Shown here: in pieces, positions 18,283-43,542 of the stretch
Position numbering within the stretch: the first letter of the stretch is position 1
Layout: each line of letters begins with the position of its first letter
DNA from: a virus
IMG/VR virus record: IMGVR_UViG_3300020439_001732
Span: 1 to 43,542 of that record
DNA: 43,542 bases
Reading direction: 5' to 3' (one strand)
Notes under the pieces: model-generated
What the model was told of the DNA's origin: nothing
Databases searched by the model: none
Seen by the model: only the letters and a program-made list of their open reading frames with translations
Program-made: the position numbers and the translations under genes

Positions 18283-18335
18283 AATATTACCTATGTTTAT
18301 TCAATAATAAATATTAAACTTCGAAAAAAGAGTGA

Positions 18336-18349
18336 TATATAAATATATA
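18336..18349 (-). promoter_or_regulatory. AT-rich candidate promoter motif for the baseplate operon
   Basis: Minus-strand reading is TATATATTTATATA, 13 of 14 bases equal to the motif at 7131 and 39865. It lies 54 nt before the first gene of the leftward baseplate operon, inside the divergent control region. It overlaps the plus-strand TATAAATA at 18338, so the same bases may serve both directions. Confidence 0.42.
18338..18345 (+). promoter_or_regulatory. T4-type late promoter -10 element (TATAAATA)
   Basis: An exact TATAAATA, the consensus late -10 of T4-like phages, recognised in T4 by gp55 with gp33 and the sliding clamp. It points toward the sole plus-strand gene, whose ATG is 93 nt further on. 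A gp55 gene is present at 18739. AT-richness makes chance matches possible, so confidence is moderate. Confidence 0.55.
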
Positions 18350-18377
18350 CTAAATAATGATTATTTTATATATACGA

Positions 18378-18419
18378 TAGTTATTACTAGTCAGGAAATC
18401 CTGACGTAATTGATAACTA
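18378..18419 (+). promoter_or_regulatory. Extended inverted repeat in the leader of the plus-strand gene
   Basis: The core GTCAGGA-AA-TCCTGAC (18390-18405) is a perfect 7-bp inverted repeat. It is flanked by TTAC/GTAA and by the outer arms TAGTTAT (18378-18384) and ATAACTA (18413-18419). In the transcript this makes a long interrupted hairpin ending just before GGGAG (18422-18426). As DNA it could be an operator for a dimeric regulator between the divergent promoters; as RNA it could stabilise the message. Confidence 0.65.
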
Positions 18420-18437
18420 ACGGGAGATAAAAACCAT

Positions 18438-18659
18438 ATGAAGGAAATCATAACACTCGTAAAAGGCTATGTAGATGATTTAGTTCATCTTATGATGTCT
18501 TTTGTTGCCATTGGTGCTGTTTCTGAAGTAATCTTTGGAAGTGGTATCTTTGGTGTTAATGTTATTGGTAACCTAACACTAATCATAAATAAATTCGGCG
18601 AATCCGGTTTCGCTGGATTAGTCGCTTTATTGGTGTTAGTGGGTTTATTCCGTAAGTAG
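18438..18659 (+). CDS. 73-residue two-span membrane protein, sole plus-strand gene
   Basis: Starts MKEIITLVKGYVDDLVHLMM after a GGGAG site 11 nt upstream. Two hydrophobic stretches are visible, at about residues 15-37 (LVHLMMSFVAIGAVSEVIFG) and 57-71 (GFAGLVALLVLVGLF), ending RK; a Gly/Asn-rich loop separates them. It has its own promoter-like element, hairpin leader and strong terminator, a layout expected for an abundant transcript. No holin or coat family is recognised. Size and topology would suit a small holin or a membrane modulator. The ORF is real given its signals; the function is unknown. Confidence 0.85.
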   Translation: MKEIITLVKGYVDDLVHLMMSFVAIGAVSEVIFGSGIFGVNVIGNLTLIINKFGESGFAGLVALLVLVGLFRK

Positions 18660-18680
18660 TACTATATCGGATAGATAGAG

Positions 18681-18712
18681 AAAAGGGGAGTCATCCGAGG
18701 CTCCCCTTTTTT
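18681..18712 (+). terminator. Bidirectional rho-independent terminator
   Basis: GGGGAG (18685-18690) and CTCCCC (18701-18706) form a perfect stem around a 10-nt loop, with AAAA before and six T after. The T-run serves the plus-strand gene ending at 18659. The A-run gives a U-tract on the minus strand, serving gp55, which ends at 18739. It separates the converging transcripts. Confidence 0.93.
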
Positions 18713-18738: not shown

Positions 18739-19458
18739 TTAAAACCAGCTACCTGTATAACGTGTTTCAACAGAACCAGTAGCTAAGAAGTTCCGTTGTA
18801 GGTGTACGTGATGTTTCTTCATCACGTTGACGACTCTGGTGATGTGTTGTGTATTTGAGCCAGTCATTTCTCGGATGAGTATATATAAAGCCTTCTTGTT
18901 GAAGTTATCAATGTTATCTCTCATTTCAATCAACTCAACAACGGCATTTGCAACATCCAAATCTTTCTTCCGTTTAAATACAGAAGTAAGATTGTTTCTC
19001 CAATATTCAGCCAATTCACGAACATAATCTTGTTTAGAACTACGAGATTCTTTGTTTCTCGCCTCAATAACTGGATCACGTTTGTAATCTAAAACATCGG
19101 AAGCATCGTGTTGTTTCATTCTCTTGTAGTTATTGTTGTTGTGTAGAATCAAGTAGTTCTTCGCAACAATACTAAAGTATGAGAATGCTTTACCCTTACC
19201 CTCAGTAAACTTATGGATATTCATATATAGAAAAGATACAACCTCGTGTTTTACATCTTCACTTGGTACATCGAAGTAATAAAACTTAAAGGTGTGTATA
19301 ATATTTTCTGCAAGTTTCTCAAATGCATTTCTAATGTGTTCATTATAGATACGTTCACGCATATGAGGTCTATCTTCCTTATTGTGTCGGATGATAGCTT
19401 TTTCGGTGTTATCGGTGAAGTAATATCTTGTTGAACCTTTTTTTGCTTTTCTTGGCAT
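18739..19458 (-). CDS. 55: Late-transcription sigma factor gp55-like
   Basis: 239 residues (T4 gp55 is 185). The sigma-2-like core is visible: AFEKLAENIIHTFKFYYF, VKHEVVSFLYMNIHKF, GKAFSYFSIVAKNYLI, as in gp55 homologues of T4-like phages. gp55 replaces sigma70 on RNA polymerase and reads late promoters (TATAAATA in T4). The C-terminus ends TRYTGSWF, a short hydrophobic tail like the clamp-binding epitope at the end of T4 gp55 (inferred). The ATG overlaps the preceding stop (TAATG). The operon begins at the TTGACA-type promoter at 20515, so the late sigma factor would be made from an early/middle promoter. Confidence 0.93.
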   Translation of the reverse strand: MPRKAKKGSTRYYFTDNTEKAIIRHNKEDRPHMRERIYNEHIRNAFEKLAENIIHTFKFYYFDVPSEDVKHEVVSFLYMNIHKFTEGKGKAFSYFSIVAKNYLILHNNNNYKRMKQHDASDVLDYKRDPVIEARNKESRSSKQDYVRELAEYWRNNLTSVFKRKKDLDVANAVVELIEMRDNIDNFNKKALYILIREMTGSNTQHITRVVNVMKKHHVHLQRNFLATGSVETRYTGSWF

Positions 19459-19709
19459 TATATATCCTCTTTAGTTATTTCGTTTAATTCAGTTACTGTA
19501 TCTTTGATACCAGCGAATACAGTTCCAATCTCATCATCAGATTCAAACTTACCCTCTGAATCTAATGCGGTTAGTATATCATTTGTATCATTGACCTTTT
19601 GTGTAAAGTTTTCTATCCACGTTTCTAATCTTTCAACTTTTTGAAATTGATTATATGTGGTATAACTTAACGTTATTGTAAGTATTCCTAAGATTATTTC
19701 TACAATCAT
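19458..19709 (-). CDS. Small single-span membrane protein upstream of gp55
   Basis: 83 residues. The N-terminal 20 are hydrophobic (MIVEIILGILTITLSYTTYN) and form one span or signal anchor. The rest is acidic and helical (VERLETWIENFTQKVNDTND; GIKDTVTELNEITKEDI). The start overlaps the HD-hydrolase stop as ATGA and its own stop overlaps the gp55 ATG, so it is translationally coupled on both sides. No family recognised. Confidence 0.75.
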   Translation of the reverse strand: MIVEIILGILTITLSYTTYNQFQKVERLETWIENFTQKVNDTNDILTALDSEGKFESDDEIGTVFAGIKDTVTELNEITKEDI

Positions 19710-20514: not shown

Positions 20515-20544
20515 AATATACGACATTTTCTATATACTTGTCAA
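20515..20544 (-). promoter_or_regulatory. Sigma70-like promoter for the HD/gp55 operon
   Basis: Minus strand: TTGACA (20544-20539), an 18-nt spacer ending in CG, then TATATT (20520-20515), 33 nt before the ATG at 20482. The same layout with AAGACTTGAC upstream recurs at 35605 and 36458. It overlaps the last codons of the PLP-enzyme gene. Confidence 0.82.
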
Positions 20545-21381
20545 GTCTTTTTTTGCAATTTTTTCCATATTTTCTCCACCAAGATTATAGAATAAAGTTT
20601 TACCCTCTAACTTATTATTCTGTAACCACCACCAAGCTTTCTTATCCCAATTACCATTACACGGAAATGGTGTTTCTAAATAATCCATAGTATCGAAAAA
20701 ATCTTGTTCTGCTTCTGATATGTAAACATTATTATGGTGATACACATCCCACTTCTTTAACATTCTAATAATAGATGTTTCACCAGCGGTGGTAATCAAG
20801 TAAGCTTTCTTTTGTGGTATGAAGTTATCGTAATCCATAAAACCTTTTAATACACCAGCACCTGTTACACCACTTCCAGCGTTCAATACAATATTATCAA
20901 AATCATATTCTTTTTGTATATCACTTACTCTATCAGAAAAATAATTTATATATTCAGGATGATTAAATGCATATGGCATCATTTGATAATCTTTTTCTTC
21001 TGCAACTCGTTTCACATAAGTTTCCACGATATCAAGTAGGTTAGGTTTTACTGGTACTAACTCTACATCATAACTTGAAATCTTATCTAATATTTCTTGT
21101 GGATAATTTTTACTATTTGGATATGCGATTTTTATATCCCATCCTAATTCTCTACCAATGTAAGCAAGTGCCCATCCACTATAACTTACTCTAACGGATA
21201 AATGTATTAATGGTTTGTTCTTATCTAAATCACCACTTTCTAATACTCTACGTATACCTTCCATTTTAGCCCACGGTGGTAAATCCATATCACCATTAAA
21301 TAAATCATCTCGTTTTACCCAAACCTCTTGTTCACCACAAGTGTGTTTTTCTATGGGTGTATCAAAATTAAAGTAGAGCAT
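20530..21381 (-). CDS. PLP-dependent enzyme, fold type II (ACC deaminase/D-cysteine desulfhydrase-like)
   Basis: 283 residues. VKRDDLFNGDMDLPPWAKME contains the lysine (about Lys39) expected to bind PLP. LSVRVSYSGWALAYIGRELG matches the 'S.G.sNHg.A.A' helix region with substitutions, and NAGSGVTGAGVLKG (169-180) is the phosphate-binding glycine loop. The family includes ACC deaminase and D-cysteine desulfhydrase, which act on small amino acids. The usual 'GGNK' is changed to 'PWAKMEG', so specificity may differ. It overlaps the Asp/Asn-hydroxylase-like gene by 14 nt and is the last gene of the cassette; its stop lies within the next promoter. Confidence 0.78.
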   Translation of the reverse strand: MLYFNFDTPIEKHTCGEQEVWVKRDDLFNGDMDLPPWAKMEGIRRVLESGDLDKNKPLIHLSVRVSYSGWALAYIGRELGWDIKIAYPNSKNYPQEILDKISSYDVELVPVKPNLLDIVETYVKRVAEEKDYQMMPYAFNHPEYINYFSDRVSDIQKEYDFDNIVLNAGSGVTGAGVLKGFMDYDNFIPQKKAYLITTAGETSIIRMLKKWDVYHHNNVYISEAEQDFFDTMDYLETPFPCNGNWDKKAWWWLQNNKLEGKTLFYNLGGENMEKIAKKDLTSI

Positions 21382-22546
21382 CTAAATGCCTTTGTTCACA
21401 TTCGATATCCATAATAACGTGGAATCGAAAATTCTTAGATTCATTTCTAACCCAATGTGGTTTTCTTTTATCCATATAATAATACTCACCAACTTTTAAT
21501 CTATGGTCAATCTCTTCACCATCTAAACCAATTTGTGTAAATACACAATCATCATCAACTTGTAATGGAAAGTGTACTCGTAATGATTGACCAACTTTAG
21601 GTCCGTTCTTAGTTTTGTAATCCCAACTATCATAACCAATATCAGTATGCCTTTGTATCAAACCTTTATGTGGTTCAACTCTTGTGATTACCAACCACGT
21701 ACATTGACCAACCGTAGTTATCTTATCCACGATACTTTGTAACTTAGGTAACGATTCTAATATCTTAGTATCTGTAGGACTATCTGGTCTGATTGGTACA
21801 ATCTCAATCGTGTACCAAGTTTTTTCAGGACCACCATAGTTTCCATTTATACCATCGTATGACCACGGATTTAGTGCATCTTCATAGTTTATGATTTCTT
21901 GTACTAATTCAGAACATTCTTTTTTTGTTATTGGTGAATCAATATCAATTTTCTTAATTGTAATATCTTCGTGTTGTTGTACACCTGGTTGTTCTTTTTC
22001 TCCACAATAATATAATCCACGTACCTCAGAACCAACTGCGGTTATTTTACTTGATAACCACTTAGCCCCAATCATATCCATAAACTTCTTATCTTCTTTT
22101 AATTCCATATTGATTTCAGTAAACCATATATCTCGTTTTGTTGAAAAGAAACCATTATCTTCTTCACGTTCTTTTTGTATAGATTCTAACAACTCATTTT
22201 CATAACCATCTTTGTATGCGAATCTTGTAACTTGTAAATCACCTTTACTTAATGTACCAACTATATCATCAGCAATATCTTTTATACCACGATTACTTTT
22301 ACTTTCTTTTATAAAGTATGCCCATACTAATTCATCATCTACTTTTTTAAATTTATAACAACCTTTATCATTTTCATCATAAATGTTTTTCCAATTTACT
22401 TTTTTAAACGGGTCAAGATTTTTTTCTTTTGTAGCTATAGGTTGTTCTTGATGTTGTGGTGGTACATCATACTCTTGGAAAAATTTAGCTTCCAACTTAT
22501 AACTCTCTTTTATATTATCTGGTATTTCACTTGTTTTTAAAACCAT
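21368..22546 (-). CDS. Aspartyl/asparaginyl beta-hydroxylase-like 2-oxoglutarate/Fe(II) oxygenase with extra N-terminal domain
   Basis: 392 residues. The C-terminal 150 hold the metal triad: RHTDIGYD (His300, Asp302), [18 protein letters not shown], and [19 protein letters not shown] with His364 and Arg374 as the 2-oxoglutarate ligand. This pattern matches Asp/Asn hydroxylases. The N-terminal 190 residues are a separate domain with [20 protein letters not shown], faintly acetyltransferase-like, which I cannot assign. A GGAG precedes the ATG, which overlaps the upstream stop. The substrate is unknown; a peptide, an amino acid or a modified base are possible. Confidence 0.82.
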
Positions 22547-42540: not shown

Positions 42541-43542
42541 TTAATAATTATTCACCACACTTACTATATGATTTCTATCTTCTTTTGATAACCACCAACC
42601 AACTGGTATATTTAACAATCTACTTTCAAAATAATCTAACCCATCTAAACCATCTCTTCTAAATTCTTCCATACAAGTATATTGGTCATTTCTAATATGT
42701 ACTACATCAGAAGCGATACCATTATCTTCTAAATACTTTTGAAATTTTTTCTTATCCTCAACCAATACTGAATAAATCCAACTTGAAGATTTAGATTTAT
42801 CACTTCTTTCAAGTAATTCTACTTTAGGATTATTAATATGTTTATCATAATATAACCCATTCTCTATATGCCTATCAATTAATTTATCAATGTATTTCAT
42901 CTGTTCAATACCAATACAAGCATTTACATTATTCATATGCAATTTATATCCCGCTTCTTTAATATCTTGTTCCCATCTTGAAGCAGATTTAAATTGTCTA
43001 TCTAACCCAAACCATCTAATCTTTCTAACTCTTTTGATATCTTCATCACTTTTACAAACAAGAGCTCCACCATCAGCAGTAGTTAAATGTTTTACCGCTT
43101 GAAATGAAAAACAAATATAATCTCCGTGATTTCCAATTTGCTTATCATTATATGTAGCTCTTAATGCGTGAGCGGCATCTTCAATAATTTTAACGTTATG
43201 TTTTCTTCCGATTTCACATATCGTATCCATATCACAAGGTTGTCCAGCCCAATGAACTATAACAATCGCTTTTGTTTTATCTGTAATTAAACTTTCAATT
43301 GATTTAGGATCTACATTACCTGTTTTTGGATTTATATCTGAAAATTTTAATACAGCTCCCATATTAATAAATGGAACATTAGTTGCCATACAAGTCATAG
43401 CAGTTGTGATTACTTCATCACCTGGTTGAACATCACACATATGTCCTGCCAACCAAATCGCTGATGTACAACTATTCACTAAACTTACATTTGGATTTCC
43501 AATGTACTCACCAAATTGTTTTTCAAACTCATCTGAATATTC
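42541..43542 (-). CDS. DegT/DnrJ/EryC1-type PLP aminotransferase, 5' end cut by window edge
   Basis: The frame is open from 43542 (edge) to 42541, giving 333 residues; the GTG at 43479 is within the protein, not the start. Upstream residues include DEFEKQFGEYIGNPNVSLVN. Family motifs: NSCTSAIWLA, GDEVITTAMTC, EDAAHALRATYNDKQIGN and FSFQAVKHLTTADGGALVC, the Lys of VKH being the PLP lysine. Such enzymes place amino groups on nucleotide-linked keto-sugars. Typical length is about 370, so roughly 30-40 residues are missing. It is likely part of a glycan-modifying set. Confidence 0.93.
   Translation of the reverse strand, partial: EYSDEFEKQFGEYIGNPNVSLVNSCTSAIWLAGHMCDVQPGDEVITTAMTCMATNVPFINMGAVLKFSDINPKTGNVDPKSIESLITDKTKAIVIVHWAGQPCDMDTICEIGRKHNVKIIEDAAHALRATYNDKQIGNHGDYICFSFQAVKHLTTADGGALVCKSDEDIKRVRKIRWFGLDRQFKSASRWEQDIKEAGYKLHMNNVNACIGIEQMKYIDKLIDRHIENGLYYDKHINNPKVELLERSDKSKSSSWIYSVLVEDKKKFQKYLEDNGIASDVVHIRNDQYTCMEEFRRDGLDGLDYFESRLLNIPVGWWLSKEDRNHIVSVVNNY

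Follow-up and report, generated by a model that had tools for sequence, protein, structure and literature searches.

A probable moron-like single-gene cassette with a proposed hairpin-started late mRNA between late sigma factor and baseplate genes of a T4-like phage

Gene content of the locus

The window analysed here, which is the whole stretch of 43.5 kb, is a fragment of a T4-like phage genome (IMG/VR record IMGVR_UViG_3300020439_001732), as judged by the baseplate wedge genes in the window and by the Gp23 major capsid protein encoded in a 132-kb relative that also carries the 73-codon gene studied here. This gene, P0001, is the sole nonoverlapping plus-strand gene in a window that is otherwise leftward (46 genes; Table 1). 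The only other plus-strand ORF call (42890-43102) falls within a leftward gene, and the lone orientation claimed in the first-pass annotation was thus borne out.

Table 1: Positions of genes and control features at the P0001 locus, numbered from the first nucleotide of the window
Feature	Position	Strand	Remarks
P0003	17902..18282	-	Diverges from P0001; heads the leftward baseplate operon
Element 1, AATATTTATTATT	18303..18315	-	21 nt upstream of the P0003 start; probably drives the leftward operon
Element 2, near-palindrome GATATATAAATATATAC	18334..18350		Contains TATAAATA (18338-18345); probable promoter, either bidirectional or a second leftward one
GATAGTTAT	18376..18384	+	Contains ATAGTTAT (18377-18384); probable -10/-7 type promoter of P0001
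42-nt interrupted hairpin of the first-pass annotation	18378..18419	+	Inner 6-bp stem and outer arms TAGTTATTA/TGATAACTA
Stem-loop GTCAGG-AAAT-CCTGAC	18390..18405	+	6-bp stem; putative 5'-terminal mRNA hairpin
Shine-Dalgarno sequence GGGAG	18422..18426	+	11 nt before the ATG
P0001	18438..18659	+	73-codon ORF; predicted two-helix membrane protein of an undescribed family
Intrinsic terminator	18681..18712		Perfect 10-bp stem AAAAGGGGAG/CTCCCCTTTT (18681-18690/18701-18710)
P0002	18739..19458	-	gp55-like late sigma factor; ends the leftward operon that converges on P0001

P0003 lies opposite to and immediately upstream of P0001 in 148 of 158 distinct copies. On the other side, the AlphaFold model of P0002 has the fold of sigma region 2, and its top structural matches are nearly all sigma factors, including T4 gp55 in the open complex (7d7c_F; Z 10.4, rmsd 5.8 over 126 residues) and sigB (8x6g_H; Z 10.3, rmsd 2.4 over 90 residues), with the remaining sigma matches at Z values of about 10 and an rmsd of 2.2-2.5 over about 90 residues. 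Relatives of P0002 match phrog_234, annotated as late sigma transcription factor (9e-5), and Sigma70_r2. The sigma gene and P0003 are codirectional in 300 out of 300 loci holding both. Two further observations were made on the sigma side, both on the minus strand. An 83-aa ORF preceding the sigma gene (19458-19709) weakly resembles Rz-like spanins (phrog_739, E 0.0045), and the region upstream of the phosphohydrolase gene (20530-22546) encodes a PALP-family PLP-dependent enzyme (threonine dehydratase in PHROG) and an Asp/Asn beta-hydroxylase-like protein.

The product of P0001, MKEIITLVKGYVDDLVHLMMSFVAIGAVSEVIFGSGIFGVNVIGNLTLIINKFGESGFAGLVALLVLVGLFRK, has relatives on at least 483 IMG/VR contigs. 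The genes are under purifying selection with a median dN/dS of 0.12 over 148 comparisons, the changes being mostly synonymous, and in a deep clade, at 29-41% identity between clades, 12 residues are invariant and the length stays at 73-74. The ORF marked in the first-pass annotation is consequently real and conserved. No match was obtained in Pfam or PHROG or among cultured phages (INPHARED), where searches with three divergent members also gave no credible match, and a literature search for P0001 peptide motifs found no mention of them. Two MAG contigs hold the gene; the host is not indicated by them. P0001 is a newly described protein family and a real accessory gene, common in uncultured marine T4-like phages and lying outside all family libraries and cultured-phage collections searched.

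The protein had been described as spanning the membrane twice. The sequence indeed has two hydrophobic stretches, at about residues 15-40 and 50-72. In agreement with this, AlphaFold gives a two-helix model (helices 2-33, 42-55, and 57-72), at modest confidence (pLDDT 75, pTM 0.37). Foldseek/VIA searches with the model found no structural neighbour in BFVD (E<=10) or PDB, a search that is uninformative because the model is a short helical hairpin. The safe reading of these predictions is that P0001 would be a late membrane protein. Its composition (GC 0.36 compared to 0.34 in the neighbours; GC3 0.31 compared to 0.22, sd 0.06) gives at most a weak hint of foreign origin through GC3.

Promoters, leader, and terminator

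The first-pass annotation had taken TATAAATA, located 100 nt before the ATG, as the late -10 element of P0001. This assignment was not confirmed and is probably wrong. The 8-mer is not enriched in the window (8 observed versus 10.1 expected), and in sense it is uncommon upstream of other genes in the lineage. The lineage promoter motif is its reverse complement ATATTTAT, which in the form ATATTTAT[TA] was found upstream of other genes in the relatives of the window 13 times in sense and 4 times in antisense in one locus set and 15 and 1 times in another. Plus orientation of TATAAATA is kept in 43 of 60 distinct relatives, and in 17 the element is reversed or absent. In the 150 nt preceding the ATG it occurs, in either orientation, in 136 of the 150 islands adjoining P0003 but in just one of nine P0001 copies located elsewhere. 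It was thus rejected as a generic late promoter, being unenriched and on the wrong strand, and probably tracks the neighbouring leftward gene P0003 rather than P0001.

Promoters of Flavobacterium phage immuto helped in reading these elements. The early-type promoters of immuto have the form GTTG-N18-20-TATATTTAGGTAT, the late-type promoters read TATATTTAT.ATA and have no upstream box, and the sampled upstream regions contain TATATTTA in sense 22 times and in antisense not once. This clear two-class grammar was read from the immuto loci L301 and L304-L306. A PWM was built on just nine immuto late sites and was too noisy for ranking sites in the window. Element 1 matches the immuto late motif and is kept as GTAATATTTATTATTAACA at empty sites and as CGATATTTATATAATAA in immuto. 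By this grammar, both element 1 and TATAAATA read on the minus strand (GTATATATTTATATATC) point to the baseplate operon. In many loci 32 nt separate element 2 from element 1, and the orientation of element 2 flips between clades; the conserved TATAAATA-type element might in fact serve as an additional plus-strand promoter. Reading TATAAATA in T4 style is tempting but probably misleading here: the site appears to belong to the adjoining operon, and this lineage uses another late motif.

An element AT[AT]NTTA[TG] is present 50-100 nt before the ATG in 158 of 163 distinct P0001 upstream regions; its form is plain ATATTTAT in copies that are not next to P0003 and in several of the clades. Since this element stays with the gene and TATAAATA does not, we place the P0001 promoter at 18376-18384 and consider ATAGTTAT, a few nucleotides upstream of the stem, the likelier promoter of the two. 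With 0-1 sense matches elsewhere ATAGTTAT is almost confined to the island and can therefore be no more than a variant of the lineage motif. Late timing is likely because a gp55-like sigma factor is encoded next to P0001 and the promoter element resembles the immuto late motif; P0001 is thus probably made late in infection. A sigma-70 scan of the region yielded 22 promoter-like sites compared to 34.3 in shuffles, none of them usable for P0001.

The leader folds with -17.2 kcal/mol (z -5.7), and none of 200 shuffles was as good. From the 42-nt interrupted hairpin proposed previously, the inner stem stood as a feature conserved in form and the outer arm did not. The outer arms TAGTTATTA/TGATAACTA pair strongly in the clade of the window, where they overlap the promoter element; across the family the pairing is no better than in shuffles (mean 5.98 versus 6.01 bp), and the outer arm was rejected as a family-wide element. 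Counted from the promoter element, the 5' arm of the inner stem begins 3-5 nt downstream in 102 of 140 distinct leaders, and the stem score is 11.4 compared to 6.5 for shuffles. Its position is near-fixed while its sequence is unrelated between clades. In one deep clade, represented by 14 sequences and 7 pairs, 98% of the cells are paired, and the covariation score of 0.72 compares with 0.32 in shuffled and <=0.16 in slid alignments; only leaders of equal geometry were aligned, which favours structure, and the slid controls share this bias. Compensatory exchanges comprise GC/CG/UA and CG/AU/GC/UA. If transcription starts 6-12 nt past the promoter element, the stem-loop would be 5'-terminal in the mRNA. 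Such 5'-terminal stem-loops are a known bacterial protection against 5'-end-dependent decay. An Rfam search gave no match for the cassette RNA.

At the other end of the gene, the perfect bidirectional terminator proposed from the first reading was confirmed, with a strong run of 6 T on the plus side and a weaker TTTTCTC on the minus side (folding z of -4.5 and -2.2, respectively). A terminator-like stem followed by a T-run is present in 131 of 152 distinct islands. Beside this, ATCGGAT, which follows the stop codon, can pair by complementarity with ATCCGAG of the terminator loop (18666-18700). The close relatives L028, L064, and L076 share this complementarity, which might represent a pseudoknot or an alternative fold, and many other relatives have an additional hairpin between stop codon and terminator.

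The GGGAG sequence pairs with the anti-SD at -7.4 kcal/mol, the background mean being -2.8. The idea of an unusually strong SD in a host lacking such sites was rejected, as the phage genes use SDs widely and that of P0001 is ordinary. Clues to the host conflict. The window encodes a phage tmRNA (29148-29553, minus strand; Rfam RF00023, 75 bits) with the tag GDSQPSYAYAA, and the relative L266 one with the tag GTQANLTYAYA. This style of tag recalls the Bacteroidota/FCB group. Flavobacterium naturally lacks Shine-Dalgarno sites (PMC6847099). Against the FCB-like tag stand the wide SD use and a TTGACT/TATTAT-like promoter before 36431. Ribosomal protein bS21 (PF01165) is encoded in two relatives (G001:36925-37080 and G012:36511-36672; L398, L397).

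Occupied and empty sites in relatives

In immuto, the genes for the phosphohydrolase, a small ORF, sigma, P0003, and further on gp25 and gp6 all run in one direction, sigma and P0003 are 34 nt apart, and P0001 is found nowhere in the 160 kb. Eighty fetched immuto-type contigs have the same order without the cassette (gap 27-73 nt), as have six close relatives (L238, L242, L248, L258, L270, and L280; gap 77-81 nt) with a sigma factor 78-83% identical to that of the window. P0001 is likewise missing from two further relatives, 162 and 167 kb long. Overall, the gap between sigma and P0003 measures 27-90 nt without the cassette and 455-5179 bp at occupied sites, where P0001 is always present next to P0003 and variable cargo (tRNAs, other ORFs, or prepilin clusters) lies toward sigma. 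The constant presence of P0001 beside variable cargo suggests that the site is an accessory-gene hotspot with P0001 as its commonest occupant. Since sigma and the baseplate operon are adjacent in relatives without the cassette, the latter is best regarded as an inserted autonomous moron-like unit, the comparison covering presence and absence at the site. The set of promoter, hairpin, SD, ORF, and terminator is conserved in about 140-160 distinct loci. Together with presence or absence of the whole unit at the same site, this strongly supports the earlier proposal of a separately controlled gene.

P0001 copies away from P0003 mostly adjoin a convergent operon of prepilin-like genes, as found on seven contigs (G001, G002, G003, G005, G008, G012, and L091). 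These genes encode GFTLIELVMVTIILGILAAVAIPRY and similar motifs and score above the cut-off of PF07963. Some large islands at the sigma-P0003 site also contain the prepilin operon. Among 25 records searched, nine have prepilins, and all nine carry P0001. Several prepilin-like genes with the N-methylation motif lie within about 1-5 kb downstream of P0001 in L088, L086, L090, L165, L012, L198, and L091, in operons that also encode a TonB-C-terminal-like protein and small secreted-looking proteins.

Proposed function and comparison with known systems

We consider it probable that P0001 and its signals form a moron-like accessory cassette with a proposed hairpin-started late mRNA. The cassette would be a complete single-gene unit that was inserted between sigma and the baseplate operon in the orientation opposite to theirs. 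RNA polymerase carrying the gp55-like sigma factor would most likely start just past ATAGTTAT, and the mRNA would consist of the stem-loop a few nucleotides from its 5' end, a short A/U-rich linker, the SD, the 73 codons, and the intrinsic terminator. With a hairpin at each end, it should therefore be short and stable and might yield much late protein. The protein is predicted to form a two-helix hairpin in the inner membrane, where it would act, possibly in lysis timing (holin- or antiholin-like), or else as a partner or inhibitor of a surface filament, or in some other change of the envelope, in this order of preference. The model of autonomous expression is well grounded in the comparison of loci. 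Presence and absence, changed contexts, and turnover of the hairpin act as natural experiments by which promoter, leader, and terminator can be dissected from sequence.

Other explanations were weighed against this one. The location of P0001 copies beside prepilin clusters when away from P0003, and its presence in all prepilin records, would fit a small membrane partner or pilus-assembly inhibitor in a phage type IV pilin-like module that persists alone in the lineage of the window. We regard this as fairly unlikely, since the fetched flanks of about 260 of 290 loci contain no prepilin, the window itself has none, and proximity within an accessory-gene hotspot says little about a common function. 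That P0001 is a dedicated membrane component (or inhibitor) of such a system, travelling with prepilin operons between T4-like marine phages, sometimes alone, with its hairpin-capped late mRNA, appears unlikely. Nevertheless, the link to prepilins represents a new testable lead on how such phages change the host surface. Also improbable is a holin gene with a long hairpin leader strongly expressed from TATAAATA as a T4-type late promoter. The position of this element, its frequent plus orientation, the adjoining gp55-like sigma gene, and a size and two hydrophobic stretches that fit a class II holin are in its favour, but the distribution and strand of TATAAATA described above argue against it, no lysis gene was identified beside P0001, and P0001 matches no holin family in Pfam or PHROG. 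A search for holin PF05105 in large relatives found none. Apart from the promoter, a holin function of P0001 is possible, but nothing beyond size and the two predicted hydrophobic helices speaks for it.

A switch of the T4 e/soc type, in which the long hairpin of a read-through RNA blocks translation and an RNA started inside the hairpin is translated, could explain why the promoter element of the window pairs over 9 bp with TGATAACTA just before the SD. Pairing of a promoter arm with the region before the SD is the arrangement known for T4 e and soc. This switch is quite unlikely here, as the pairing equals that of shuffles across the family and, the upstream gene being divergent, there is no obvious source of read-through. 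Finally, conservation in form of both structured ends might indicate that the conserved product is an RNA and the ORF incidental, which the codon-level purifying selection, the invariant residues kept between divergent clades, and the lack of an Rfam match render extremely improbable. The moron-like cassette encoding a membrane protein thus remains the preferred reading.

Class II holins are proteins of about 70 residues with two hydrophobic helices and a basic C-terminus. P0001 is like them in its size and C-terminus and, as predicted, in its helices, and differs in having no sequence or structure match and in not being found beside an endolysin gene. The T4 genes soc and e are small late genes with their own promoter and a hairpin near the ribosome-binding site. 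The same would apply to P0001, for which late timing is presumed, but here a conserved stem lies downstream of the proposed promoter and the SD is outside the stem. T4 late transcription uses the gp55 sigma factor and TATAAATA and has no -35 element (PMC2988020). Correspondingly, a gp55-like sigma gene adjoins P0001 and the putative immuto late promoters have no -33/-35 element, whereas the motif of the lineage is (T)ATATTTAT..A instead of the T4 motif TATAAATA. A further comparison concerns phage morons, coding regions with their own promoter and terminator between genes that are adjacent in related phages (PMC4378225). Morons are dispensable for phage growth, benefit host or phage, and usually, though not always, deviate from their neighbours in nucleotide composition. 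P0001 is likewise a single coding region with its own promoter-like element (158/163) and terminator, absent from the same site in relatives. In contrast to morons, which are expressed from the prophage, it resides in T4-like phages with a putative late-type promoter, its site and orientation are conserved over a deep family, its composition is barely different, and its mRNA would have a structured 5' end.
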